DNA of 64,000 bases, taken from positions 558,001 to 622,000 of the forward strand of contig NZ_JACJQU010000001.1 of assembly GCF_014696825.1 (NCBI RefSeq). The letters run 5' to 3'. This document shows, piece by piece, positions 9,433 to 61,759 of this stretch. The notes beneath the pieces were generated by a model. That model did no database searches. It saw only the letters and a list, made by a program, of their open reading frames with translations, and was not told where the DNA came from. Origin of the DNA: Anabaena sphaerica FACHB-251. GTDB lineage: Bacteria; Cyanobacteriota; Cyanobacteriia; Cyanobacteriales; Nostocaceae. Made by a program: the position numbers and the translations under genes. Numbering within the stretch: the first letter of the stretch is position 1; each line of letters begins with the position of its first letter.

Positions 9433-10053
9433 GTTAATTATCCTTGTGGAATTTGACAAAACTGTATTTTGGGGTTGGGAACAAAATTGAATTGACAGTT
9501 TAGGAATGCTGACTAATAAAATTGATTGTTGCTGATTTACTGATTATGAGACACGCGCTTAATGAATGCGTTAACCAGGAGCAAGCTTTGTTGTCAACAA
9601 TTGGGTTTGACATTCACTATCACTAAGTTAACGAGAATGTCATCATATATAGCTACCCTTCTGGATTCAACCTTGCTGTCAGAATTTATGTATTAAGTAA
9701 GTCGGCGGGAAAAAACCGAAGTATGTAACAAAAAGTAAATTCACCAAAACCCTCTTCCCCGTTCCCCGTTCCCCGTTCCCTGTTCCCTGTTCCCTTGTCA
9801 TAACGACAATTTTTAACGCCCACTTACTTACTTTTTACTAAAAGAATTAATCTCCAAGATATACAACATACAATAAAACTAGGTGAAGTTAGCAACTTTT
9901 TGCTATTGTCCACATTTTTGCTAAAAAGAGCGTCGGAGGTTGCTCTATTGTCATCCTCCCTTTGCCTTTATGTCACTCTTTCTTTCCTTGACTAAGAGTG
10001 TCTTCCTCTAGGTGAGATGTGGGTAAAAACGAGGATTTACAGGAGGGATTTGG
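9433..10053. other. Long intergenic between divergent glyA and a small ORF
   Basis: This region of about 620 bp contains the promoters for glyA (leftward) and for the small gene at 10054 (rightward). A TA-flanked MITE-like element occupies 9696-9828. The remainder shows no gene I can support. Confidence 0.5.
9696..9828. mobile_element. MITE-like element, relative of the cas2-disrupting family
   Basis: Ends are AGTAAGTCGGCG on the left and the reverse complement of AGTAAGTGGGCG on the right, and the element is flanked on both sides by TA. These are the same terminal inverted repeats as the MITEs at 45389 and 61321. Its interior differs: it holds tandem TTCCCCG/TTCCCTG heptamers (about 9757-9794) in place of the GC-rich core. 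It is 133 bp, has no coding capacity, and would need a transposase acting in trans. Confidence 0.65.
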
Positions 10054-11772: not shown

Positions 11773-12099
11773 ATGACCACAGTTTACGAAACAATGTACA
11801 TTCTCCGCCCTGACTTGGGAGATGAGCAGGTAGATCAAGCCGTTACTAAATACCAGAACTTGTTAACTGAACAAGGCGCACAGAATATTGAAATTCAAAA
11901 TCGTGGTAAGCGTCGTCTTGCTTATGAAATCAATAGGCATCGTGACGGCATCTACATCCAATTTAACTACACAGCCCCCGCAGGTGCGATCGCTCCCTTA
12001 GAACGTGCCATGCGATTGAGCGAAGAAGTGATTCGCTACCTTACAGTTAAGCAAGAAGTACGCGAAGAAAAATCAGCTAAAGAAGCTGTAACCGCCTAA
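11773..12099 (+). CDS. rpsF: 30S ribosomal protein S6
   Basis: A 108-residue S6, with [20 protein letters not shown] at the N-terminus and [20 protein letters not shown] in the middle, ending in a charged EEKSAKEA tail. It binds S18 and 16S rRNA in the platform of the small subunit. In this window it stands alone, without rpsR or rplI, which is common in cyanobacteria. An imperfect hairpin (12112-12134) follows the stop codon. Confidence 0.96.
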
Positions 12100-30862: not shown

Positions 30863-31362
30863 GTTTCCATTAATTCCACTTCCTATAAAGGAAGCGACAA
30901 TTAGCTGAGTCGATGCCTAACGAACACTTCGCACAATTCCCGTTTCCATTAATTCCACTTCCTATAAAGGAAGCGACTCAGAACCATTAAACTACACCGA
31001 TTGGTTGGACGTTACGGGTTTCCATTAATTCCACTTCCTATAAAGGAAGCGACCTGAACTTTTTCTTCAACCGTGAGGCTATACTTGGTGCGTTTCCATT
31101 AATTCCGCTCCCTATAAAGGAAGCGACCCTATTGATGGGCAAATTGACAACTTTACAGAGTTATTGTTTTCATTAATTCCACTTCCCATAAAGGAAGCGA
31201 CTTCAATCGCCGTACACAATACATTTACCCGCATCTTCTACATCAAGCCGTTTCCATTAATTCCACTTCCCATAAAGGAAGCGACTGGCATTGGGTTTTC
31301 AATACAACAAACTTCGAGGATCTACCGTTTCCATTAATTCCACTTCCTATAAAGGAAGCGAC
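30863..31362 (-). CRISPR. CRISPR array 1: 7 repeats, 6 spacers
   Basis: Seven copies of a 36-bp repeat start at 30863, 30942, 31018, 31092, 31166, 31250 and 31327; spacers are 38-48 bp. In transcribed orientation (minus strand) the repeat begins GTCGCTTCC and ends ATTAATGGAAAC, with a short CTTCC/GGAAG stem. Orientation is set by the leader on the right (31363 onward), which is homologous to the leader of array 2. Repeats at 31092 (two changes), 31166 (two) and 31250 (one) are degenerate, while the leader-distal one at 30863 matches the consensus. Confidence 0.98.
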
Positions 31363-31945: not shown

Positions 31946-33343
31946 CTAGGTTTGCAATTCATAATTATTAATTGCTGTGTCTAGTTCTTGATGGACACAT
32001 GACATGAGACTGGCTTCTTCTAATGAGTTAAATTCTTGTTTAGTTATAAAATCTAAGCATCTTCTAACTCTCTTTTGCCATTCTTTGTTACTATTTGTAT
32101 TCCATGCTTGAAATACTTCCTCTTGTTGTAATCCTAGCAAATTATGAAATAAATTATTTCTTTGTTTGGATGTGTAGTCTTTAAAAATTCTGATATCTTC
32201 ACTCAATTTCCAATCAGATAAAACTGTTTCAATTAAATCATGGATACCTTTGTGATCATATTTACTTGCCTCCATATCTCTCAACAAACCTTCAACAGCA
32301 CGGAAACTATGAAACAAAGCTTCTAAATTATTACCTTGCCTCAGTCTTATAACCGCTAAATAAGCAGCTTCATAACTTGTCCACCACCTTTTTTTAGTCT
32401 GTTCCTCAGCATTTTTATCTATTTTACTTCTGGCTTTTCCAAAATCATTAAAATTAGCATTATTCCATTGAATAGCCATTGCTAATAAATCTTTAATTTT
32501 TTGTTCTTGAACATTTAATAATTCTTGTTTTTGCTTCCAAACTTCAGTTAATATTTTATCAACACCAGAGTAATCATATCGTTTTAATAATTCCTTTGCT
32601 TCTTGCAATTTAATACCTTTCAAGTAATTGGAACTGGGAATAGAGATAGGATTTCCTGGTTCGTACTCATTACTTACTAAAAATTGTACTTGCTTTTCAA
32701 ATTTTGCTAAACTGCTGAACTGAACTGCTGAAGAAATAGCCGGAGTACCTGCTTGATGACTGACAAAAATCTTTGTATATTCTCTAATTTCTAAGTCAGC
32801 CATTTCTTGGTAAAATAAATTGTTAACCAAGATTAAGCATTTATCCCAATTATCAAGACCTTCTTCTTTAGAATTAGGCTTTAATTCTAAATATTTAATA
32901 TCGTGATTTGATTTCAGTCGAGGGAACTTTTTCTCAAAATATTTCTCTAGAATTGGCTTGAGTGTATAAGTATCTTGCCAATAAGGACATTTATTGTTTG
33001 TTTTATCTTCATCAGAAAAAACATTTTCCTGATTAGTTAAAATCACAATTATTTTATCAGGTTGATTTTTACCAGTTAACCCATTAATAAAAGTATCTAA
33101 CAAAGGAAAGTGTAAATCCTTAAAAATTTCATCATCTAATTGAGGACTATAAACCATACCCATAACCCTTGCAGGAACAGTATAAGGTTCATTAGCAGGA
33201 GCATTTTTTAATCTATATGGTTCAAACAAATGATCAGAGAATTCGCTTCTAACTTCTCTATAAAGTTTCTGCCATTTATTAGAGTTATAATTAGGTTTTA
33301 GCTGCACATCACTATTACCAGTTGTTACAATCCAAATACTCAT
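31946..33343 (-). CDS. CARF-HEPN ribonuclease (Csm6/Csx1-like ancillary effector)
   Basis: A 465-residue protein. The N-terminal CARF-like Rossmann domain (about 1-240) starts SIWIVTTGNSDVQL and contains the ligand-loop-like HQAGTPAISSAVQF (196-209). The C-terminal HEPN domain holds the catalytic R-x4-H motif RNNLFH (R395, H400). In type III systems cyclic oligoadenylate made by Cas10 binds the CARF domain and activates HEPN RNase. GGGGAG precedes its ATG, and it starts just 3 bp after the double-RAMP stop codon, clearly in the cmr operon. Assignment to Csm6 or Csx1 proper is not possible by eye. Confidence 0.82.
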   Translation of the reverse strand: MSIWIVTTGNSDVQLKPNYNSNKWQKLYREVRSEFSDHLFEPYRLKNAPANEPYTVPARVMGMVYSPQLDDEIFKDLHFPLLDTFINGLTGKNQPDKIIVILTNQENVFSDEDKTNNKCPYWQDTYTLKPILEKYFEKKFPRLKSNHDIKYLELKPNSKEEGLDNWDKCLILVNNLFYQEMADLEIREYTKIFVSHQAGTPAISSAVQFSSLAKFEKQVQFLVSNEYEPGNPISIPSSNYLKGIKLQEAKELLKRYDYSGVDKILTEVWKQKQELLNVQEQKIKDLLAMAIQWNNANFNDFGKARSKIDKNAEEQTKKRWWTSYEAAYLAVIRLRQGNNLEALFHSFRAVEGLLRDMEASKYDHKGIHDLIETVLSDWKLSEDIRIFKDYTSKQRNNLFHNLLGLQQEEVFQAWNTNSNKEWQKRVRRCLDFITKQEFNSLEEASLMSCVHQELDTAINNYELQT

Positions 33344-33346
33344 TGT

Positions 33347-35083
33347 TTATACTCCCCAAAATTTAGTAAAATCACTTGTTGGTAAAAATGTTAAAAATTC
33401 TTGTGTTCTTTCATCTCTTGTATCTGGAAAGATAGTTAATAACTCTATATACTTTTTCTGATAAATCATCTTCCCATCACTGATTTTGTAATGTGGATAC
33501 ATTCTATGGTAAATTCTGCCAATACTCCCCATTTTACCCGTCAATTTAGAACCTTTAATTGATTGATTTCCTTTGTAATTCCCATGAAACCATCTCACAG
33601 CTAAACTATCATCTTCACCTAAAGCAATTCGCCCCCAAACTTGCACTTTTTCAGGATGAAAAGATTCACGCCATGAACTGTTTTTATTTGTTGGTGTATG
33701 ACCTTTAAAAATCAACCAATTTTTAACAGCCTTGTGAACACCATCAATAATATTAGTGATGTGATTCAGGTTATTAACAGGAAAATAGTATTGATTTGAT
33801 TCCTTGGTAAATTGCCAATGACAGCCTATCATTGGTTTATTTCCATTTTCCAAATATTCGGGAAAAAATATTCTATGATCAATTCTGCGGGATGATTTAC
33901 CAAAACCACCTATCAGCATGGAAAACTTGATCAATTGGAAGGCTAAAATTTTCAATTCTTTTTTATATTCATCTGTAAAATTTTTCATACAGAGAATATT
34001 TAAAACGCCTTTATTTAATTCATAAATTGGCATTTTCAGATTATTGTATTTAAATTCATCCATTTCTAAATCAACAGGATTAAATGCAATACCTAAATCT
34101 CCAACTATTGCACCTTTATTATTATCGGCAAAACCTCCCCAAAGTTCCTTAGTTAATTCTTCTGCTGTTTTCTCATCAGTCAATGCACTAAATAACCGCA
34201 ATGTATGACCACGTAAAGCGGCTTTAAACATATTCGGACGAAATTCAGGTGTTTTATCTGTATCTACTAATTGTGATGCTAAACCTTGTCCTTTTAAATT
34301 AACAGTAAGTAGTTTAGTTTCTGGGTGTTTAACAGGTTGACCATACCCCGCACTTACCCTAGAACCAATACCCCTTTCTATGGCTTTATCCCAAATATTC
34401 CAAATAATTTCCCATTCACTATCATCTAATTCAATATTGCTAGAAATACCAAAAACTAAAGTCGGTTGATAGAGAGATATTTGCAAAAAAGCCGAGTGAG
34501 AATCATTATTTTTAACTTGCCAATCTTGTTGAGGATGAACCACATCAATTAATGGTTGTTCACACCAACTATCATCTTCAGGATATGCACCATGAAAACG
34601 CAAAATACCCGGTTTAGTTTCGTTATTTGTAAAACCTCTCTCCAAACCTCTCTCCTGCAAGGAGAGAGGCTTTAAATTCTCCCCATTTGTTCCTTCTCCT
34701 CTTAGGAGAGGGTTAGGGAGAGGTAGGGAAGGGGGTTGGGGGGTTAGGTTCTTACCTCCACAATATTTCATAGCCTGTTCAGGGTTACAACTTCTTAAAA
34801 AAGCACCCTTCATACTCGCACCAGGATAATAGGGAAAGCCATTAGCAGCTATGACAGGTCTGATGATACTGTCATCTTGTCCACTGTTAGAAATAAAACG
34901 CCAAGTGATTTTATATGGTTTGGTTTTGACATTGTGGTTAAATTTAGGGGAATTTGTAGCAGTAGCTTCTACCCATTCATCAACCCATCTTTCTGACTGT
35001 TCTCGTTCTTCAATATATTGAACTTGTCCCCTACCGCTAATTGGTGCTTGAAACATTAACGGCACTTCATTACTATTCGGCAT
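33347..35083 (-). CDS. Double-RAMP protein: Cmr6-like N-half, Cmr1-like C-half
   Basis: A 578-residue RAMP-superfamily subunit of the type III-B complex. The N-terminal half is Cmr6-like: PVIAANGFPYYPGASMKGAF and ERGIGSRVSAGYGQ glycine-rich loops. The C-terminal half (about 280-578) has Cmr1-like features: NMFKAALRGHTLRLFSAL, ELWGGF, and IGGFGKSSRRIDHR. There is no separate cmr1 gene, and the length is about twice a usual Cmr6, so a Cmr6-Cmr1 fusion is the best reading. Residues 112-151 are encoded by an inserted GC-rich dispersed repeat (34631-34750). AGGAGA precedes the ATG, which overlaps cmr5 by 11 bp. Confidence 0.75.
   Translation of the reverse strand: MPNSNEVPLMFQAPISGRGQVQYIEEREQSERWVDEWVEATATNSPKFNHNVKTKPYKITWRFISNSGQDDSIIRPVIAANGFPYYPGASMKGAFLRSCNPEQAMKYCGGKNLTPQPPSLPLPNPLLRGEGTNGENLKPLSLQERGLERGFTNNETKPGILRFHGAYPEDDSWCEQPLIDVVHPQQDWQVKNNDSHSAFLQISLYQPTLVFGISSNIELDDSEWEIIWNIWDKAIERGIGSRVSAGYGQPVKHPETKLLTVNLKGQGLASQLVDTDKTPEFRPNMFKAALRGHTLRLFSALTDEKTAEELTKELWGGFADNNKGAIVGDLGIAFNPVDLEMDEFKYNNLKMPIYELNKGVLNILCMKNFTDEYKKELKILAFQLIKFSMLIGGFGKSSRRIDHRIFFPEYLENGNKPMIGCHWQFTKESNQYYFPVNNLNHITNIIDGVHKAVKNWLIFKGHTPTNKNSSWRESFHPEKVQVWGRIALGEDDSLAVRWFHGNYKGNQSIKGSKLTGKMGSIGRIYHRMYPHYKISDGKMIYQKKYIELLTIFPDTRDERTQEFLTFLPTSDFTKFWGV
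34631..34750. repeat. In-frame dispersed repeat inside the double-RAMP gene
   Basis: A 120-bp stretch beginning AACCTCTCTCCAAACCTCTC-like and ending GGGGTTAGGTT-like. It matches the GC-rich core of the MITEs at 45389-45527 and 61321-61459, but lacks their AGTAAGT ends. Its length keeps the reading frame and it adds about 40 residues (NLTPQPPSLPLPNPLL onward), Pro/Leu/Gly-rich and unlike the surrounding RAMP fold. Confidence 0.8.
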
Positions 35084-35498
35084 CGTTATCTCCTGGTTTT
35101 TTATAACGTTGAGTCCACCAAACCAAACTGTCGCAAAATTGAGTAAGAACTGCTAAACAAATGCGCTGGTCTTCAATGGGAAATTCCCATAATTTAGCTG
35201 CATAATCTTGTACTTGTTTGGTATTATTACCATCAACTTTTTCTTCAGGAAGTTTAATTCCTGCTTTTTTCATAATTTCGACAAAAGTTGTCCAAGTATC
35301 ACGCCAATATTCACCTTTTGCGCGTTCTTTAGAGTCGGTTTTACCTAACAGTCGTAAATGTTCACCCCAAAAACGTTCTAAACCATAAGCTACAGTAGTT
35401 CGCATTTTATGAGATTGACCAATTACGCCTTTTTTATCCCGATGTTTGAGGACTAACTTTTGTGCTTCTTGGTCTAAATTGTAAGATTTCCAAGTCAT
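35073..35498 (-). CDS. cmr5: CRISPR-associated protein Cmr5
   Basis: A 141-residue all-helical small subunit of the Cmr complex. SHKMRTTVAYGLERFWGEHL and the Trp-rich C-terminus DSLVWWTQRYKK fit the Cmr5 family, as do its size and its position between cmr4 and the cmr6-type gene. Cmr5 forms the minor filament along the target RNA. AAAGGAG precedes the ATG. The stop codon overlaps the start of the double-RAMP gene. Confidence 0.88.
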   Translation of the reverse strand: MTWKSYNLDQEAQKLVLKHRDKKGVIGQSHKMRTTVAYGLERFWGEHLRLLGKTDSKERAKGEYWRDTWTTFVEIMKKAGIKLPEEKVDGNNTKQVQDYAAKLWEFPIEDQRICLAVLTQFCDSLVWWTQRYKKPGDNDAE

Positions 35499-35502
35499 AT
35501 AT

Positions 35503-36354
35503 TTACACTCCTTTGAAGGTTAATTCACAATGACCTAAACCGATAGATTCTAACCCACCTAAATAAATATCTGCGGTTTCACCACTTTTTAAAGGTTGCC
35601 ATTTTTTACCAGATTTATCATCTCTAATAGCCACAGGAAATACTAAAATTGTGCCTTCTGGTAATGCTTCAGTGTTGAAAAATCCACCACCATCAACTAC
35701 TTTCTGATCTGGTTTTAATCGCACACGACTTTGGCGATATAATGCCATATCATGAATCATGCCAATATCACTATCATCGACTATTACAGATGGTTGTTGT
35801 TTTTGGTCAGGAAACCAAGGTGATAAATCTTTGGTTTTGTTAATTTCTAAGAAACCTAAATTAAAGAAGATGGTTTTTTTACCTCCTGTTGCTTGTTTAG
35901 CTACAAGATTAGTTGAACCTGTATATTTATCAGGAATTTGTATCTCTTTGAGAAGTTTAGTTTTACCATCTACTTGAACTTGAACACTATCACCAGCAAT
36001 TCTTTGATAACGTTGCAATAAACGGGGACAACTTACCCAAACTATTGGTTGTCCAGGACAAAAAACAGGAATCCAAATAATAGAAGCATATTCAAATTTA
36101 ACAATGGATTCATTATTATTTACTTCTGCTGCACCTGCTTCATTACCATACCAATAATTTGCGTCTGCTTCTCCGTTTTCTATCAAGCGCATTTCTGAAC
36201 GCAAACGACCACGAATAGAACTACCAGGAATGATCCCAGTTTGGGTAAATTGGTCACGGAAAATCAGGTTTAAATTACCACTTTCTTCTCCTGCGGTTGC
36301 ACCAACATGGAGAGGTGCTAAGGTTTCAATAATGCCATAAGCTTTTTTGTACAT
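35503..36354 (-). CDS. cmr4: CRISPR-associated RAMP protein Cmr4
   Basis: A 283-residue Cas7-like backbone subunit. The N-terminal GIIETLAPLHVGATAGEESGN and GIIPGSSIRGRLRSEM are diagnostic of Cmr4, and the C-terminus has the glycine-rich YLGGLESIGLGHCEL. Cmr4 copies line the crRNA and cut the target RNA at 6-nt intervals; the catalytic aspartate could be the one in NLIFRDQFTQ (inference). AAGGAG spans the end of cmr3 and lies about 9 nt before the ATG, so translation is coupled. Confidence 0.93.
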   Translation of the reverse strand: MYKKAYGIIETLAPLHVGATAGEESGNLNLIFRDQFTQTGIIPGSSIRGRLRSEMRLIENGEADANYWYGNEAGAAEVNNNESIVKFEYASIIWIPVFCPGQPIVWVSCPRLLQRYQRIAGDSVQVQVDGKTKLLKEIQIPDKYTGSTNLVAKQATGGKKTIFFNLGFLEINKTKDLSPWFPDQKQQPSVIVDDSDIGMIHDMALYRQSRVRLKPDQKVVDGGGFFNTEALPEGTILVFPVAIRDDKSGKKWQPLKSGETADIYLGGLESIGLGHCELTFKGV

Positions 36355-36355
36355 T

Positions 36356-37363
36356 TTAGTTAACTCCTTGAATTTCTACTGGTAAACACAAACCACAACC
36401 AACTTTTTTGAGACTGTAACCTTCATTGGGAAACCATTTTTCGTCCCATTCCCACCAAGGTTTGTTAATGGGTTCTTTGAGAACGTAAACACTACCCGCA
36501 GGAACTGCATAACGTCCTCTTCCTAATGTTCCTTGAGAACGGTAACGATAGGGAACTGGTTTATCAGTTAACATCTGCATAGTTTCAGGAAAACTATTAT
36601 CTTGAGGTTGACGGTGAGAAATACGGTTAGAACCCCAAATTCCTGGTGTAATTAAAGCAAATTTATCTTTTATTGGCTGACGTAAAAGCTCTAAAATTGG
36701 ACTGTTATCAGGTAGTTCAAAACTGTTGATTTCTACAATATGATTTTCACCACCAAATCTATACCAACCATTGGGTAAAGCCTGAGTAGATAAATAAACT
36801 AAGCAATATTCCGAGTCTAACTGTACAGAATATTCTAGAAACAATCCACCTTTTGTATCATCCTCATTTTTCAGAGTACATCTTTCATCATTTTTTAAGT
36901 GAGGATGCAATACAGATACAAAATTCCAAGGTACTTTTTCCGCATACCCATTACTACGAATTCTTTCTGCTGAATAATTCCAGTAATTAATTGTTTGCCA
37001 CTGATAATCTGGTGTTAATTCTGAGTTTTCACAGTGCCATTTTTTGTTTTTAAATTCCCATTCACTAGATTCATCTTCAGCTATAATTTTAGTCCAAGGT
37101 ATTGGTACATAAAAATATTCTGGATTATTGGTTTTGCTCCAAAATGGACCTGCAACAGATAAATCATTACTTAATTGTTTTTTATCCCATAATTTTTGAA
37201 CTTGGTTAACACTAAAGAATAATCCAGATAAAGTAGCTGCTTCAGGAGGAAATTTAGCACCAGAACGACCAACTAAATTTTCAGGTGATAAAAATGCTCC
37301 AGCACTACCATACATTAAACCTAAAGGATTGATACAGATTAGATATTTGAACATAAATGCCAT
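36356..37363 (-). CDS. cmr3: CRISPR-associated protein Cmr3
   Basis: A 335-residue Cas5-like subunit that caps the crRNA 5' tag. The segment INPLGLMYGSAGAFLSPENL with FPPEAATLSGLFF is Cmr3-like, as is PVPYRYRSQGTLGRGRYAVP. Two starts are possible: the ATG at 37363, or the ATG three codons later (37354), which has AGGA at better spacing. Either overlaps the end of cas10 by 16-25 bp, so translation is coupled. Confidence 0.9.
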   Translation of the reverse strand: MAFMFKYLICINPLGLMYGSAGAFLSPENLVGRSGAKFPPEAATLSGLFFSVNQVQKLWDKKQLSNDLSVAGPFWSKTNNPEYFYVPIPWTKIIAEDESSEWEFKNKKWHCENSELTPDYQWQTINYWNYSAERIRSNGYAEKVPWNFVSVLHPHLKNDERCTLKNEDDTKGGLFLEYSVQLDSEYCLVYLSTQALPNGWYRFGGENHIVEINSFELPDNSPILELLRQPIKDKFALITPGIWGSNRISHRQPQDNSFPETMQMLTDKPVPYRYRSQGTLGRGRYAVPAGSVYVLKEPINKPWWEWDEKWFPNEGYSLKKVGCGLCLPVEIQGVN

Positions 37364-38925
37364 CCTATATGAATTAAACCATCAATCCATTTCATGAGTT
37401 CTAGATTATCTGATTTACCAACTATTTTTTCCTGTTGGTTTTCTAAATATTCTTTCTGTTTCTCAAAGTAAATATTAAAGAGTTCTAATGCTATCCGTTC
37501 ATCAACATGATACCCTTTTGCATTCAAATTTATTGCATGACGAGCTTTTAAAGTTGCTAAATCACTATAAACATGACCCCAGTTAGGAAAATCTTCCTTC
37601 TTTCTTCCCTTACATTCCCACTCATAAAATGTTTTACCATCCCTATCTCGATACTTCATCAAAATCCCCAAATAATCCCAAGGACAAGTCCACTGGACAT
37701 ATTGACCACTATTAAAAACCACCCGAATAGTAACTCTATCTCTTCCCAAAGATTTCGCTACCTTTTCCGCTTCCCGACAATGTTGTAAAACATCTCGCTG
37801 AGGTACACTACCCGCGACCCAAACAAAACCCACACTAACATTAATACCCTGTTTATGTTCCTTCCATTTATCTTTTAAAGTCCGTAACCATTCATAAGCT
37901 GTAAATGCTGGAATTGGTTTTTTAGAATCTTTACTATAAATAATTCCTAAAAAATCATCACCACCAGCATAAACAATTCTCCCTAAATTTTCAGGAAACT
38001 CTTGATCAAAATCTTTACCCCAATTCCTAATTGCATCACTAAATTGGTGAATTTCTTCATCACCATTGTCTTTTTTAGCTAACTCCTTCAAATGGTCTCC
38101 AACTTTATCACCATCTCCCATAAACCACCCTGTCCATTGTCCAGGAATGTTTTTACTAGGTTCTGGTTTTCTTTGAATGTCTTTAAAACTCTCTTCTAGT
38201 GTTTCCATCCCTAATTTTTGCCCTATTCCATACCAGGTAACTAACCGTTTTACTAATTCAGGAATACTCAGCTTTTCATTAGGTGCAATATATTTACCTT
38301 CTGGTTCTTTATCATCTGGACAATTATCTAATTTTCGCGCTAATTTTGTATAAAAATCCTTGACTTTATCATCTTCTAATCCATAATTTAAGGTCTTAGG
38401 ATTACGATAATCAGAACCCAAACCAGGAAAAGCAATTCCATCAGTACCCGTCAAACTAGAACTTTCACCAATCCAATTTACAGCACTCCAATCACGAGAT
38501 AATTTATTAGTTTCTAAATCATCCATCGCTGCTTTGATGCTGTCACCACATCCTTGAAATACTTCCCAAGTATGACAACCCCAAAGCGTCCATTCTCTTT
38601 CCCATTCATAATGAAATTCTGGGAGTTTTTTTTGTATCCATTCTCGACAAACTTTTAACATCTCCTTCCATGCAGAAAGAATGATTTTTTCAGCTTCTTC
38701 TTTACTCATTTCTCCTTTAATTAAAATGCGGTTAGGCATTCCTTTTTGGACGCTAGGAAGCGCAGGAGAAATCAGTTTTAAATCCTTATGATTATCAACA
38801 TAACTAACTATTTGTTGACTCAAATAAGAAAGAATTAAAGATGCACCATACAAGTCTCGAAGCTTGCGGGATTTTTCAATAAACCCTTGAACGGGAGCAA
38901 AGGTGATAGCAGTATATTTATCCAC
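37339..38925 (-). CDS. cmr2: Cas10/Cmr2, HD-less, with intact GGDD cyclase motif
   Basis: A 528-residue large subunit of the type III-B complex. It begins directly at the first palm region, TFAPVQGFIEKSRKLRDLYGASL (6-28), so the N-terminal HD nuclease domain found in many Cas10 proteins is absent. The second palm contains YAGGDDFLGI with GGDD at 321-324, the site of cyclic oligoadenylate synthesis; GWFMGDGDKVGDHL (267-280) is the other palm motif. It should therefore signal through second messengers to the CARF-HEPN RNase and not cut DNA. The start is GTG, with AAGGAG 11 nt upstream. First gene of the operon. Confidence 0.92.
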   Translation of the reverse strand: MDKYTAITFAPVQGFIEKSRKLRDLYGASLILSYLSQQIVSYVDNHKDLKLISPALPSVQKGMPNRILIKGEMSKEEAEKIILSAWKEMLKVCREWIQKKLPEFHYEWEREWTLWGCHTWEVFQGCGDSIKAAMDDLETNKLSRDWSAVNWIGESSSLTGTDGIAFPGLGSDYRNPKTLNYGLEDDKVKDFYTKLARKLDNCPDDKEPEGKYIAPNEKLSIPELVKRLVTWYGIGQKLGMETLEESFKDIQRKPEPSKNIPGQWTGWFMGDGDKVGDHLKELAKKDNGDEEIHQFSDAIRNWGKDFDQEFPENLGRIVYAGGDDFLGIIYSKDSKKPIPAFTAYEWLRTLKDKWKEHKQGINVSVGFVWVAGSVPQRDVLQHCREAEKVAKSLGRDRVTIRVVFNSGQYVQWTCPWDYLGILMKYRDRDGKTFYEWECKGRKKEDFPNWGHVYSDLATLKARHAINLNAKGYHVDERIALELFNIYFEKQKEYLENQQEKIVGKSDNLELMKWIDGLIHIGWHLCSNI

Positions 38926-39316: not shown

Positions 39317-41410
39317 ATGTCCAACCCTCCCATCTGTCATTTCCTCATCGGTGTCCCTGGTAGCGGAAAATCAACTTTTGCTGCTAATCTGGCTAAATTA
39401 GGCAATTATCGCGTTATCTCTACAGACGCTATTCGACAGCAACTATATAATGATGCGACTATTCAAGGTGAATGGACAGAAATAGAAGCGAAAGTCATCT
39501 CTGCGGTTGTGACAGCTATTACTGAAGGCGTTAGCGTGATTTATGATGCTACTAACGCCAAGCGTGTATGGAGACTGGATTTATTACAAAAGCTGAATTT
39601 AGCTGTGAGTACCCCTGTATTGTGGATGGGGTGGTATTTACAAACACCTATTGAAATCTGTAAGCACTGGAATCAACAACGCTCTCGTCAAGTTCCAGAT
39701 GTGATAATTGATAAAATGTCCGCATCTCTACAAGATTTTCCCCCCATTGCAGCGGAAGGATTTGCAATTATTAAAGAAGTTGATGTCACTGCGTCAAATT
39801 TCGATTTCCAACAAATTTATACTCACATTCACCAGCTTGATAAAACTCTTATCAATCGCAGTAATCGCAATAGTCACATGACTTTTCATGCTTATAGTAA
39901 ATTGCTGGATTTTGAACGTTTAATTTATCTCATTTCCTTGATTATCAACTATCCAGGAATTGGTAACTTAACAGAAAATCAGCCTGGTTTATTAGTAAAT
40001 ATTTTCGGTAATGTTCCTGATTTTCCAACTGCTTTATCAGAAATTACTGGTTTTATGATGCAATTGCATGGTAAAATATATGCAGATCAAAAAGCTATCG
40101 CTAATGATTTACAGTGGTTACAAAAAAACGCTCTAATTGGCGTTAATACAATTTCTTCAACACCCCATACTCCTATTGATGCTGGTGATTATGTTGAGCA
40201 TTATTCTAGTAATTTAGTAACTCATCCTTATTCAGATTTACCAGCATTTCAGCGATTAATACACACAATCAGATTAATTTTACATCATCCTTTTTTAGTA
40301 AACACTGGAAAAGGAAGTTTAAAAACTTTAGTTTCTGTCATGCAAGAACAGGGAATAATTGATGTCAATAATAGTAATATATTCAAGACCGTTTTAAATT
40401 CTGTCCGTAAAGATATCGAAAAAATTCTCAAACCCTATAAAATTTTACCTGATTTTTCTATGCGCGATGGTTATTTTGCGGGAACTGCGATTTTATCAAC
40501 ATTAGAATTAACTCAAGTCTTTCAAGTGCTTCAATCTCAAGCACAAAGTCTTAATGACCCCATAGCATTAGAGATTTATGAAAAGTTCGCTAATCGCATG
40601 GAAAAAAGTAAATTAGGTGTGAGTGAAGTTTATCCGGTGAGAGCGATCGCAAATCGTAGTATGATTGACCCAGAGTATTTACCAGCGGAGTCCTTAGCGA
40701 GAAATTTACAACGAGTTGAAGAAGCTATTATCAAGGGACAACTTTTAGAATTAAATCGTTTTCCCGGTGGTGGTCAATTTATTTTAGATGAAGAAAGTTT
40801 CTTTTTAGCTTTCCCCCTCCAAATAGTTTTTTTTAACTATGCTTGGTATTTAGGTTACGAACTTGTTGAAGGGAAAGATGACGGTTTACTGAGATTTGAA
40901 AGATTAGATAGATTATTTATTGGTAAACCCCAAACAAAAACCCGTTCTCAACTAGAACAGGAAGAAACTTTAAAGAAATTACAAAAACTATCCGCAGCTA
41001 GTGGAGGAATTTTTTTAGGATATAATCCCCAAGACCAAAAACAATTTCTGGATGGAAATAAAAAAGCACGTTCTCAGGTCTGCGTTACTGTGGAACTGTG
41101 GTTTAGTGATGGAATGTTTCGGTTTGTAGCTGAAGGAACTAAACGCTTTCCATCACAACAAATGAAAATGTCTTTACCAGTTACTGGCAATAAATTAAAT
41201 TTACCAAAATCTATTTTTTCTCTCAAATCAACTGGAGAGAAAAATTTTCCTAATCGCTTTCAAGTCATCCTCCCGCAATGGTGTTTAGATGACATAGAAT
41301 TGTTACGCTGGATTCTTGGTTTTAAAGCAGGTGTAAAGGTAGTAAAACCACAATTATTAGTTGATAAATTTAAACAAATTGGTGAGGATATTGTCAATAT
41401 TTATAGGTAA
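39317..41410 (+). CDS. P-loop kinase (AAA_33-like) fused to WYL-domain module
   Basis: A 697-residue protein not matching any named Cas family I know. The N-terminus (1-180) is a P-loop kinase of polynucleotide-kinase type: Walker A GVPGSGKST (12-20), then ISTDAIRQQLYND and VIYDATNAKR. The long central helical region (190-470) has no motif I recognise. The C-terminal part (about 480-690) contains NYAWYLGYELV and LLRFERLDRLFIG, the WYL-domain hallmark, then a segment like the WYL C-terminal extension (FSDGMFRFVAEGTKRF). WYL domains sense nucleotide-like ligands and regulate several CRISPR loci. Divergent from cas10 and next to array 2, it is a likely regulator or accessory factor. Confidence 0.75.
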   Translation: MSNPPICHFLIGVPGSGKSTFAANLAKLGNYRVISTDAIRQQLYNDATIQGEWTEIEAKVISAVVTAITEGVSVIYDATNAKRVWRLDLLQKLNLAVSTPVLWMGWYLQTPIEICKHWNQQRSRQVPDVIIDKMSASLQDFPPIAAEGFAIIKEVDVTASNFDFQQIYTHIHQLDKTLINRSNRNSHMTFHAYSKLLDFERLIYLISLIINYPGIGNLTENQPGLLVNIFGNVPDFPTALSEITGFMMQLHGKIYADQKAIANDLQWLQKNALIGVNTISSTPHTPIDAGDYVEHYSSNLVTHPYSDLPAFQRLIHTIRLILHHPFLVNTGKGSLKTLVSVMQEQGIIDVNNSNIFKTVLNSVRKDIEKILKPYKILPDFSMRDGYFAGTAILSTLELTQVFQVLQSQAQSLNDPIALEIYEKFANRMEKSKLGVSEVYPVRAIANRSMIDPEYLPAESLARNLQRVEEAIIKGQLLELNRFPGGGQFILDEESFFLAFPLQIVFFNYAWYLGYELVEGKDDGLLRFERLDRLFIGKPQTKTRSQLEQEETLKKLQKLSAASGGIFLGYNPQDQKQFLDGNKKARSQVCVTVELWFSDGMFRFVAEGTKRFPSQQMKMSLPVTGNKLNLPKSIFSLKSTGEKNFPNRFQVILPQWCLDDIELLRWILGFKAGVKVVKPQLLVDKFKQIGEDIVNIYR

Positions 41411-41644: not shown

Positions 41645-41682
41645 TAATCTTTATTGATGCAATATCCCCAATTTATTTTAAT

Positions 41683-43669
41683 GTTTCCATTAATTCCACT
41701 TCCTATAAAGGAAGCGACAAAACAATTGAGAATCTCTACTTTCAGAAGGATAGGTTTCCATTAATTCCACTTCCTATAAAGGAAGCGACACGTTCTGACT
41801 TGTGCGCCAACTCACAGCAAGGGGATGATAGGTTTCCATTAATTCCACTTCCTATAAAGGAAGCGACTGTCTGTTTAAAGACGCAGTGGTAATAGGAGCT
41901 GGTGTTAATGCCGTTTCCATTAATTCCACTTCCTATAAAGGAAGCGACTGGAACAGCAGCCATATATAGCCTACGTTGACGGGGTATATCCGTTTCCATT
42001 AATTCCACTTCCTATAAAGGAAGCGACAGTGCTTGCGGAGATATGATTGGTCCGTTCTCAGGATGCTTGTTTCCATTAATTCCACTTCCTATAAAGGAAG
42101 CGACCAGTGGGAGATGAAAGCAGCCGCAATAGAGGCTATTAGAAGATGTTTCCATTAATTCCACTTCCTATAAAGGAAGCGACGTTTATTAAGAAAGAGG
42201 AGGTATGTATGACTAAACCAGTCATGTTTCCATTAATTCCACTTCCTATAAAGGAAGCGACGCAGATGATATCAATGAACTCAAGCAGAAGTTTCGTCTA
42301 GGTTTCCATTAATTCCACTTCCTATAAAGGAAGCGACCTCATGAGAATGAAGCGGTGGAAGAATCAGAAAAGGTTTCCATTAATTCCACTTCCTATAAAG
42401 GAAGCGACCTTCTTTTAACTCATGCTGCTATCGGAAGAATCAAGTTTCCATTAATTCCACTTCCTATAAAGGAAGCGACGTTGTACACTGTGGAGTTAGA
42501 CACTAACCACCTGACCTGCAAGTTTCCATTAATTCCACTTCCTATAAAGGAAGCGACAACAGGCGATCGCAGATTGTCCTATCAGCAAACTAGAATCGTT
42601 TCCATTAATTCCACTTCCTATAAAGGAAGCGACGTATTGGAAGCCCTCAAGGCTGAACCAATGCTCCATATTGTTTCCATTAATTCCACTTCCTATAAAG
42701 GAAGCGACTCAGAGAACTTATCAGCTTTCCTGAACTAGACTTTATGCCGTTTCCATTAATTCCACTTCCTATAAAGGAAGCGACTACGAGTAACACAACC
42801 TAAAGTTTCTCTAGGTTTAAGTTTCCATTAATTCCACTTCCTATAAAGGAAGCGACACAGCTGGGATAACTTGGGGTATTTCAACCACTCGTTTCCATTA
42901 ATTCCACTTCCTATAAAGGAAGCGACTCATAGCTGCAAGGATTTGTAGTTCAGGTTTAGCTTGTTTCCATTAATTCCACTTCCTATAAAGGAAGCGACAA
43001 AGTACGTCACAGAAATGGGAAGAGTTAACCCACATGTCGTTTCCATTAATTCCACTTCCTATAAAGGAAGCGACTAGAAGATGAGGCACAATGGACCAAA
43101 GTCTTGAGTGTTTCCATTAATTCCACTTCCTATAAAGGAAGCGACAGTGAAATAAGAGAACTTGTTGTATCAACAGATAGATATGTTTCCATTAATTCCA
43201 CTTCCTATAAAGGAAGCGACAGTTAACACCTAAACAACTAGATTCATATAGTAAGTTGTTTCCATTAATTCCACTTCCTATAAAGGAAGCGACAACGCAC
43301 TATTTGATAGTGGTGCTACTATTCCTGTACTGTTTCCATTAATTCCACTTCCTATAAAGGAAGCGACTATCAAACCGCCGATCTGAACTTGAACTACAAC
43401 AACGTTTCCATTAATTCCACTTCCTATAAAGGAAGCGACATCTCTCTAGTTGAGTACAATGAGGACAGTGTAGTAATGTTTCCATTAATTCCACTTCCTA
43501 TAAAGGAAGCGACAAAGTGTGTGCTAGTAAATCCATCAAGCTGTCAAAGATAATTCAAGTTTCCATTAATTCCACTTCCTATAAAGGAAGCGACGCTACT
43601 GCATTCACTGTGGCTACTGGCGGATTAGGAGTAGTTTCCATTAATTCCACTTCCTATAAAGGAAGCGAC
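41683..43669 (-). CRISPR. CRISPR array 2: 27 repeats, 26 spacers
   Basis: Twenty-seven near-identical copies of the same 36-bp repeat as array 1, first at 41683-41718 and last at 43634-43669; spacers are 34-45 bp, in the range of type III systems. Read on the minus strand, because the leader homologous to that of array 1 lies on the right (43670 onward). In that orientation the repeat ends ATTAATGGAAAC, giving a crRNA 5' tag of the usual type ending GAAAC-like. The uniform repeats suggest a more recently active array than array 1. Confidence 0.99.
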
Positions 43670-44368: not shown

Positions 44369-45361
44369 ATGCGAACACTTTACGTCTCACGTCAAGGTTG
44401 TTATATCTCCCTCAAAGCGGAAACATTAATAGTTAAACAAGGAGAAACAATTCACGGCGAAATTCAACTACCATTACTAGAACAAATACTAATCTTTGGT
44501 AAATCACAAATCACAACCCAAGCAATTCGTAGCTGTCTTTGGCGAGATATACCCATCGCTTATTTATCAAGAATGGGATATTGTTATGGTCGATTAATGC
44601 CCATAGAAAGAGGATATCGGCGCTTATCTCGCTATCAACAAGAATTAACCACAATTGATAAAGTCATAGTAGCCAGAAAAATCATTCAAGCTAAATTAAA
44701 AAACAGTCGCACATTTTTACAACGTCAACAACGGCGTAACCCTTCCACCACGGCTGATATTAGCATTAAAAGTTTAGAAGTATTAATCCAAAAAGCCGGA
44801 GAAGCTGAAACAATAGAACGTTTAATGGGCTTAGAAGGTGCTGGTGCTGCTCAATATTTTTCAGCATTTGGTGAATGTTTAAATAATCCTAATTTTATAT
44901 TTTTAGCCCGCAGTCGTCGTCCTCCAGGCAACCCTGTTAATGCTATGCTGAGTTTTGGTTATCAAATTCTCTGGAATCACTTATTAACATTAATTGAACT
45001 CCAAGGATTAGACCCCTATTATGCTTGTTTACATCAAGGAACAGAACGCCATGCAGCTTTAGCTTCTGACTTAATTGAAGAATTTAGAACACCCATAATT
45101 GATTCTTTAGTATTGTGGTTAGTTAATACTAAAATTATGGACGCTAACAACGATTTTGAATATCATGATAGTGGTTGTTATTTAAATAATGCAGGTAGAC
45201 CAAAATATATTAAATATTTCCTCCAAAGATTAGAGGAAGAAGTCCAAAACTCCCAAGGAGAAAAACAACCCCGTTGGGATTTAATGACTCAACAAATTAA
45301 AGCCTTTAAAGATTTTGTTTATCAACCTAGTCAAATATACAAACCTTATCAAATTCGCTAA
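44369..45361 (+). CDS. cas1: CRISPR-associated endonuclease Cas1
   Basis: A 330-residue integrase for new spacers. The beta-rich N-terminal domain (MRTLYVSRQGCYISLK) leads to the helical catalytic domain, with the conserved Glu in LMGLEGAGAAQYFSAF, the His in CLHQGTERHAALASDLIEEFR, and the acidic DLIEEFR motif. It looks complete. Its TAA stop codon shares the A of the original cas2 ATG (TAATG), showing the ancestral cas1-cas2 coupling. No reverse-transcriptase fusion. Confidence 0.96.
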   Translation: MRTLYVSRQGCYISLKAETLIVKQGETIHGEIQLPLLEQILIFGKSQITTQAIRSCLWRDIPIAYLSRMGYCYGRLMPIERGYRRLSRYQQELTTIDKVIVARKIIQAKLKNSRTFLQRQQRRNPSTTADISIKSLEVLIQKAGEAETIERLMGLEGAGAAQYFSAFGECLNNPNFIFLARSRRPPGNPVNAMLSFGYQILWNHLLTLIELQGLDPYYACLHQGTERHAALASDLIEEFRTPIIDSLVLWLVNTKIMDANNDFEYHDSGCYLNNAGRPKYIKYFLQRLEEEVQNSQGEKQPRWDLMTQQIKAFKDFVYQPSQIYKPYQIR

Positions 45362-45780
45362 TGTTATTTTATGTTATTGTCTATGATAAGTAAGTGGGCG
45401 TTAAAAAATATAATATAAACCTAACCCCCCAGCCCCCTTCCCTACTAGGGAAGGGGGAGTCAAAGCCTCTCCCCTGGTAGGGGAGAGGTTTGGAGAGAGG
45501 TTTTATATTTAATTGTGCCAAGTTACTTATACCCTGTGATAAAAGGCGTAAAAAAGTAGCTGATTTATTAGAAGGATATGGTCAACGAGTCCAATATTCA
45601 GTTTTTGAATGTATTCTTAACCAAAATAAATATAAAGAACTGAAAAAACGACTGCATCAACAAGTAAATCTTACAGAAGATAGCGTCAGATTTTATCCAT
45701 TAACCAAACATACACTCAACCAAATAGACACCTGGGGACAAACACCCGTTACAGAAATTCCCAACTCAACTATAATTTAA
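45361..45780 (+). pseudogene. cas2: cas2, interrupted by a MITE after codon 9
   Basis: The original gene starts at the ATG overlapping the cas1 stop codon and reads MLFYVIVYD, the first beta strand of Cas2. A 139-bp MITE then intervenes. The frame resumes at 45529 with IPCDKRRKKVADLLEGYG and runs to the normal end. Reading into the element from the native start meets a stop at once (AAG TAA). A TTG inside the element (45490) is in frame with the rest and could give a 96-residue chimaera lacking the first strand and its conserved Asp, so true Cas2 function is probably lost. Confidence 0.9.
45389..45527. mobile_element. 139-bp MITE inserted in cas2
   Basis: It is flanked by TA on both sides (45387-45388 and 45528-45529). 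Ends are AGTAAGTGGGCG and, inverted, AGTAACTTGGCA. The GC-rich core contains GGGAAGGGGG and GGTTTGGAGAGAGG motifs. Removing it with one TA restores an intact cas2 frame (GAT ATA CCC). It differs from the inverted copy at 61321-61459 at only three positions that I could count. The TA duplication fits an IS630/Tc1-type transposase acting in trans. Confidence 0.9.
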
Positions 45781-61207: not shown

Positions 61208-61759
61208 GGAATAGGGAATAGGCAGGAGGCAGAAGAAAGATAAATATTCATCCTTCTTAGCCTATTTTCCCTCTTTCTCCCCAGTCCCAGGTCTAAATCG
61301 GCAATTTAATGGTGAAAGTAAGTAACTTGGCACAATTAAATATAAAACCTCTCTCCAAACCTCTCCCCTACCAGGAGAGAGGCTTTGACTCCCCCTTCCC
61401 TAGCAGGGAAGGGGGTTGGGGGGTTAGGTTTATATTATATTTTTTAACGCCCACTTACTTAGCACTAATCGCAATTAAGACTCGCCGCTGCCTCTTTGTA
61501 CTTTTGTAAATTTAACTTAACTAACTGTTATCATCTATCCGTTTTGGGGCAAACGGATAAAAAAAAATCTAAAATAGTAACTATGCTCTTGCTTTTCCGG
61601 TTAATTGTTAATAATGCTGGCTTTTACTAATTGATGAACCAAATCGTAACAAATTACATTTGTCACAGTAAAATTACCATTGGTATGGATGGTGAAAGCG
61701 AATAGCAAAATAAGTTCTTTGAGGATATTTCTTCAATTCCCAACACCAATGGAGATATT
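61208..61759. other. Repeat-rich intergenic after guaA
   Basis: GGGAATA repeats (61203-61222), a 139-bp MITE (61321-61459) and an inverted repeat TATCCGTTT / AAACGGATA (61536-61544 and 61551-61559) followed by an A run. No gene is supported. The promoter of the response regulator should be in the right third. Confidence 0.6.
61321..61459. mobile_element. 139-bp MITE, intact copy of the cas2-disrupting element
   Basis: The same length as the copy in cas2 and in inverted orientation, with only three differences that I counted. It begins AGTAACTTGGCACAATT and ends AACGCCCACTTACT, and is flanked by TA at 61319-61320 and 61460-61461. It does not interrupt a recognisable gene. Confidence 0.9.

Follow-up and report, generated by a model that had tools for sequence, protein, structure and literature searches.

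A TA-flanked MITE interrupts cas2 of a type III-B CRISPR locus in Anabaena sphaerica FACHB-251

Organization of the type III-B locus

The window that we analyzed is a stretch of 64,000 nucleotides from the filamentous cyanobacterium Anabaena sphaerica FACHB-251 (contig NZ_JACJQU010000001.1, positions 558,001 to 622,000 of the forward strand), and it contains a CRISPR locus that was assigned to type III-B from PADLOC matches to cas10/cmr2 together with cmr3 to cmr6 (Table 1). The repeat shared by its two arrays occurs nowhere else in the genome. No phage match was obtained for the spacers of the III-B array, and comparison of the array with plasmids gave low-identity pieces over 18–90% of its length that are not convincing spacer targets. 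In most close relatives, over the stretch that their contigs cover, the Cmr genes, the WYL-domain gene, similar repeats, cas1, and cas2 are found together.

Table 1 Features of the type III-B locus and of the interrupted cas2 gene (positions are those of the window).
Feature	Positions	Strand	Basis
Second CRISPR array, 7 copies of the same repeat, three with 1–2 changes	30863..31362	-	Repeat search
Type III-B effector genes csx1 (CARF-HEPN), cmr6, cmr5, cmr4, cmr3, cmr2/cas10	31946..38925	-	PADLOC matches
WYL-domain protein gene, kept with the module in relatives	39317..41410	+	PADLOC and locus comparison
CRISPR array adjoining cas1, 27 identical repeats GTTTCCATTAATTCCACTTCCTATAAAGGAAGCGAC (+ reading)	41682..43669	-	Probable transcription strand, from the ..GAAAC end
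cas1, intact, 330 aa	44369..45361	+	Translation, PADLOC match, alignment
5' cas2 fragment, MLFYVIVYDK then stop	45361..45393	+	9 native codons, then AAG TAA
Target-site duplication, left TA	45387..45388	.	Read from sequence
139-bp MITE inside cas2	45389..45527	+	Boundaries, TIRs, TA flanks, genome copies
Possible chimaeric Cas2 ORF, 96 aa, TTG start inside the MITE	45490..45780	+	Translation, PADLOC, AF2 model
Target-site duplication, right TA	45528..45529	.	Read from sequence
3' cas2 fragment, residues 10–92, frame intact	45529..45780	+	Translation and Cas2 match

Interruption of cas2

The ATG of cas2 overlaps the TAA that ends cas1. The cas2 gene is split after codon 9, and its frame terminates at positions 45391–45393 after 10 codons have been read; in the AAG TAA at 45388–45393, the AG and the TAA are contributed by the inserted DNA. 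Exactly 139 bp lie between the two TA dinucleotides, after which the frame is picked up as IPCDKRRKK...NSTII and runs to a stop codon at 45778–45780. When the cas2 flanks were joined with a single TA, they yielded one open frame for a Cas2 of 92 amino acids. The joined sequence, GATATACCC, is identical to the uninterrupted site of a Nostoc relative (L060), the repaired junction GATATACCCTGTGATAAAAG equals the orthologous site in that locus, and the native reading at the position of the break in relatives is MLFYVIVYDIPCDKRR. A Cas2 protein is recognized by a ferredoxin-like fold that begins with strand 1 and by a conserved Asp; the native strand 1 and Asp9 are not encoded in the remaining frame, of which residues 10–92 still match Cas2 profiles.

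On these points the initial annotation proved accurate. Its overlap of the cas2 ATG with the cas1 stop codon and its peptide MLFYVIVYD were correct to the base when the sequence was reread; the TA-flanked element that it described as cutting cas2, with the frame resuming at IPCDKRRKK, was confirmed; the excision that it proposed, leaving one TA, does restore a normal Cas2; and Cas1, which it had called intact, aligned with relatives over its full length.

An assembly artefact, or an insertion carried by just a fraction of the cells, appears very improbable. The element is present in many copies in this genome and the assembly was read by itself, but the sequences on either side come from a single gene and together restore an intact Cas2, an outcome that misjoined copies would not give, and the contig measures 846 kb whereas the element measures only 139 bp.

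The MITE family and its mobility

The inserted DNA bears imperfect terminal inverted repeats, AGTAAGTGGGCGTTAAA and AGTAACTTGGCACAATTAAA, with arms of 28 nt and 75% complementarity. It contains two G+C-rich hairpins, and the predicted RNA fold of the element has an energy of -62.8 kcal/mol (z -5.6). With 139 bp it falls well within the length of a MITE (less than about 600 bp, no transposase gene) and contains partial frames only. Given its inverted ends and its lack of coding capacity for a transposase, we classify the element as a MITE, as the initial annotation had done. The genome (G000; 6.19 Mb in 44 contigs) harbours 36 near-full-length copies, eight of which, including that in cas2, are 100% identical. 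All 30 copies that we extracted for comparison share identical 14-nt termini (AGTAA../..TTACT) and a TA on either side, and the empty site of L060 has a single TA. The number of near-full-length copies, the identity of eight of them, and the uniform termini and TA flanks argue that the insertion is not a product of chance. Near-identical copies were also found in G086, G072, and G098, with G086, which belongs to another genus of the same family, containing a copy that is 100% identical. No promoter or terminator acting downstream was predicted in the interior of the MITE.

Most copies are situated outside genes or near gene ends, and a few break open reading frames early or in the middle; cas2 thus appears to be one of many insertion sites. 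Among the open reading frames broken by this MITE, whose identities were judged by eye, are a PIN/VapC-like one, at about codon 10 of 160 (L056, G000:C6:15191), and another at codon 102 of 153 (L047, G000:C4:89458). Another 139-bp copy, 97.8% identical, lies at 61319–61461 of the window on the minus strand.

An autonomous parent with the same ends was found neither at 20 sites bearing an unpaired left end nor in the vicinity of DDE_3 or DDE_Tnp_1 transposases. The sole DDE_3 transposase found consists of two broken frames and does not have these ends. The TA target suggests that the MITE is mobilized by a transposase of the IS630/Tc1-mariner class. All but a few of the 20 lone-left-end sites correspond to a second MITE family of about 110–155 bp, which has the outer end TAAGTAAGTGGGCGTTAAAA in common with the first and differs in its core and right end. 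This second family is common in the genome, with one site at about 9695–9830 of the window and about 20 others (L109–L128).

A further observation concerns cmr6, which contains an in-frame insert of 40 codons at 34631–34750 of the window on the minus strand, NLTPQPPSLPLPNPLLRGEGTNGENLKPLSLQERGLERGF, that is absent from five relatives. Given that the DNA of this insert is similar to the G+C-rich core of the cas2 MITE, a related repeat also entered this CRISPR locus at cmr6, where it has apparently been tolerated as coding sequence.

Relatives and age of the insertion

An intact cas2 gene of 92 codons directly follows cas1 in all ten of the closest relatives (L058–L067), whose Cas1 proteins are 85–93% identical. 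In more distant relatives for which enough sequence was available, an intact cas2 is also present, sometimes behind a non-coding gap. About 90–340 bp of non-coding DNA separates cas1 from cas2 in L072, L074, L078, L081, L085, L086, L087, L093, L098, and L099, in which cas2 is intact or nearly so; this DNA possibly represents further repeat insertions.

The remainder of cas2 at our locus contains no stop codon or frameshift, and its dN/dS values against relatives were 0.12–0.20, with those among intact relatives being about 0.06–0.21. The values of the remainder are thus only slightly higher and speak neither for nor against relaxed constraint. The 100% identity of the MITE to seven other copies together with the undamaged cas2 remainder suggests, without dating the event, that the insertion is probably fairly recent.

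A possible chimaeric Cas2

The initial annotation had raised the possibility that a TTG inside the element drives a chimaeric Cas2 lacking strand 1. An open frame of 96 codons does start at TTG 45490, but the loss of strand 1 was not borne out by structure prediction, in which the MITE-encoded residues FIFNCAKLL were modeled as a lower-confidence strand 1. PADLOC Cas2 profiles matched the chimaera only from residue 14–18 onward. An AlphaFold model obtained with 25 relatives was nevertheless Cas2-like, with a strand at residues 6–13 built from MITE residues, and the Foldseek matches of this model were solved Cas2 proteins. Mean pLDDT was 70.6 for the chimaera versus 78.1 for the intact L060 control, and the confidence of the first block of ten residues was 54 versus 84.

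Such a protein might fold with FIFNCAKLL as strand 1 and support integration, so that the adaptation module would be altered rather than dead. Its open frame, the Cas2 fold retained in the model, and the still well-conserved residues 10–92 favor this possibility; moreover, Cas2 catalysis is reportedly not needed for integration in E. coli, so that some activity is conceivable. The following points nonetheless make it quite unlikely in our judgment. The confidence of the first block is low relative to the control, and guidance by the alignment may impose the fold. The chimaera certainly loses Tyr8 and Asp9, which are invariant in 25 of 25 intact Cas2 sequences and are replaced by other residues. 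In addition, initiation at TTG 45490 should be poor, because this codon closes a hairpin of 13 bp and the preceding GGGGAGAGG is buried within the hairpin, one base from the start.

Other CRISPR systems in the same cell

The initial annotation had expected both arrays to be frozen if no other cas2 existed. Other cas2 genes do exist: two further cas1-cas2 pairs, both intact, are present in the genome, on contigs C2 and C10. The pair on C2 stands with cas10d, csc2, and csc1 and thus belongs to a type I-D system, and that on C10 stands with a Cas8a/Cas7-like set that PADLOC designates type I-A-like. Freezing of the III-B arrays still appears likely. The repeats of the I-D and I-A-like arrays differ from the III-B repeat, III-B Cas1 is only 30% and 27% identical to the I-D and I-A-like Cas1 proteins, respectively, and the corresponding Cas2 proteins share 44% and 42% identity with the intact Cas2 of L060. 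Because of these different repeats and distant Cas1 and Cas2 proteins, the I-D and I-A-like pairs probably do not serve the III-B arrays.

The opposite case, in which the I-D or I-A-like Cas2 pairs with III-B Cas1, or one of these Cas1-Cas2 pairs inserts into the III-B arrays so that they continue to grow, has in its favor that both pairs are intact. As a rule, however, Cas1 and Cas2 are matched to one another and to their own leader-repeat, and on the basis of this specificity as well as the sequence distances given above, we consider such trans-complementation unlikely.

Two observations were made on the arrays of these other systems. A spacer of the I-D array (L038, about 11893–11930) and one of the I-A-like array (L039, 11678–11716) have 23 nt in common, TCGTTTGCAAACTTTCCACCTGT, carried on opposite strands. 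Two CRISPR types of this cell thus appear to be directed against one sequence; these 23 nt had no exact match in viral contigs. The I-A-like array also contains an exact tandem duplication of 225 bp, corresponding to three repeat-spacer units (L039, 13192–13641).

Consequences of the insertion and its possible recurrence

Spacer integration requires Cas1 as well as Cas2. With the cas2 gene interrupted, native Cas2 would no longer be made, the 5' frame giving only a peptide of 10 residues, and Cas1 would be unable to form the Cas1-Cas2 integrase. Both arrays with the III-B repeat would then stop gaining spacers. We therefore consider it probable that the TA-targeting, non-autonomous MITE, which lies directly behind codon 9, has ended the growth of the III-B arrays. 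Cmr interference with existing spacers could continue, given that the Cmr genes look intact. Acquisition by the I-D and I-A-like systems would be unaffected, and the cell as a whole keeps adaptation modules. The freeze is most likely confined to the III-B memory.

We searched 218 genomes of the family for recurrence of such events and obtained 59 matches with at least 62% identity to this Cas2. Of these matches, 55 begin at residue 1 or 2 and extend through the rest of the protein with no stop codon. The four shortened matches are the present locus, G148 (from residue 6), G002 (from residue 14, with a stop codon inside), and G124 (from residues 14–17). In G148 and G002, the DNA preceding the cas2 break terminates in one shared, dispersed motif, ..TTCAGAAATCAAATAGGAGTCCTATA, with many occurrences in those genomes, and in G124 it is a tnpB-like gene on the other strand, as judged by eye. 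The contigs concerned (L141, L142, and L143) break before or near cas1, so that a single flank is visible in each. As read from these flanks, the 5' end of cas2 has apparently been lost to mobile DNA in 3 of the 58 other family matches.

It is conceivable, although doubtful, that unrelated mobile elements have repeatedly inactivated III-B adaptation in Nostocales by striking the 5' end of cas2, with interference and other CRISPR systems being kept. If true, such repeated loss would point to selection acting specifically against the uptake of spacers by the III-B module. The three other apparent losses, counted for cas2 alone, hint that adaptation disappears more easily than interference does.

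Comparison with known systems

The locus presents a clean natural knock-out of cas2 beside two intact adaptation modules and is mainly of interest as a natural experiment. Such a system could address whether CRISPR types that coexist in a cell share their adaptation proteins, and whether type III-B is maintained as a read-only memory.

In about 33% of the cyanobacteria that have cas operons, cas1-cas2 are absent altogether (cited in PMC4428289). MITEs that disrupt genes are common in Nostocales: in Anabaena sp. 90, 15 of 147 do so (PMC3542288), and mcy clusters inactivated by MITEs are cited in PMC10969869. These elements are also short, multi-copy, and interrupt open reading frames to give pseudogenes, a likeness of description, and the text of the two reports that was searched contains no case of cas2. 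Nezha (Zhou et al. 2008, as cited in PMC10969869) is likewise described as a cyanobacterial MITE family.

A close parallel is a survey that recorded 163 IS insertions in cas genes across 57 genera, together with a separate MITE survey (Nat Commun 2023, PMC10359306). There, too, natural mobile DNA, MITEs included, resides in cas genes and is taken to inactivate CRISPR-Cas. Its main text names cas2 only as an E. coli model gene and does not mention cyanobacteria; the present insertion differs in affecting adaptation only, with the interference genes intact. In view of this survey, the description of the insertion as a notable case in the initial annotation was overstated. The insertion in cas2 adds a well-defined case to a kind of event that is already known, and does not represent a new mechanism.
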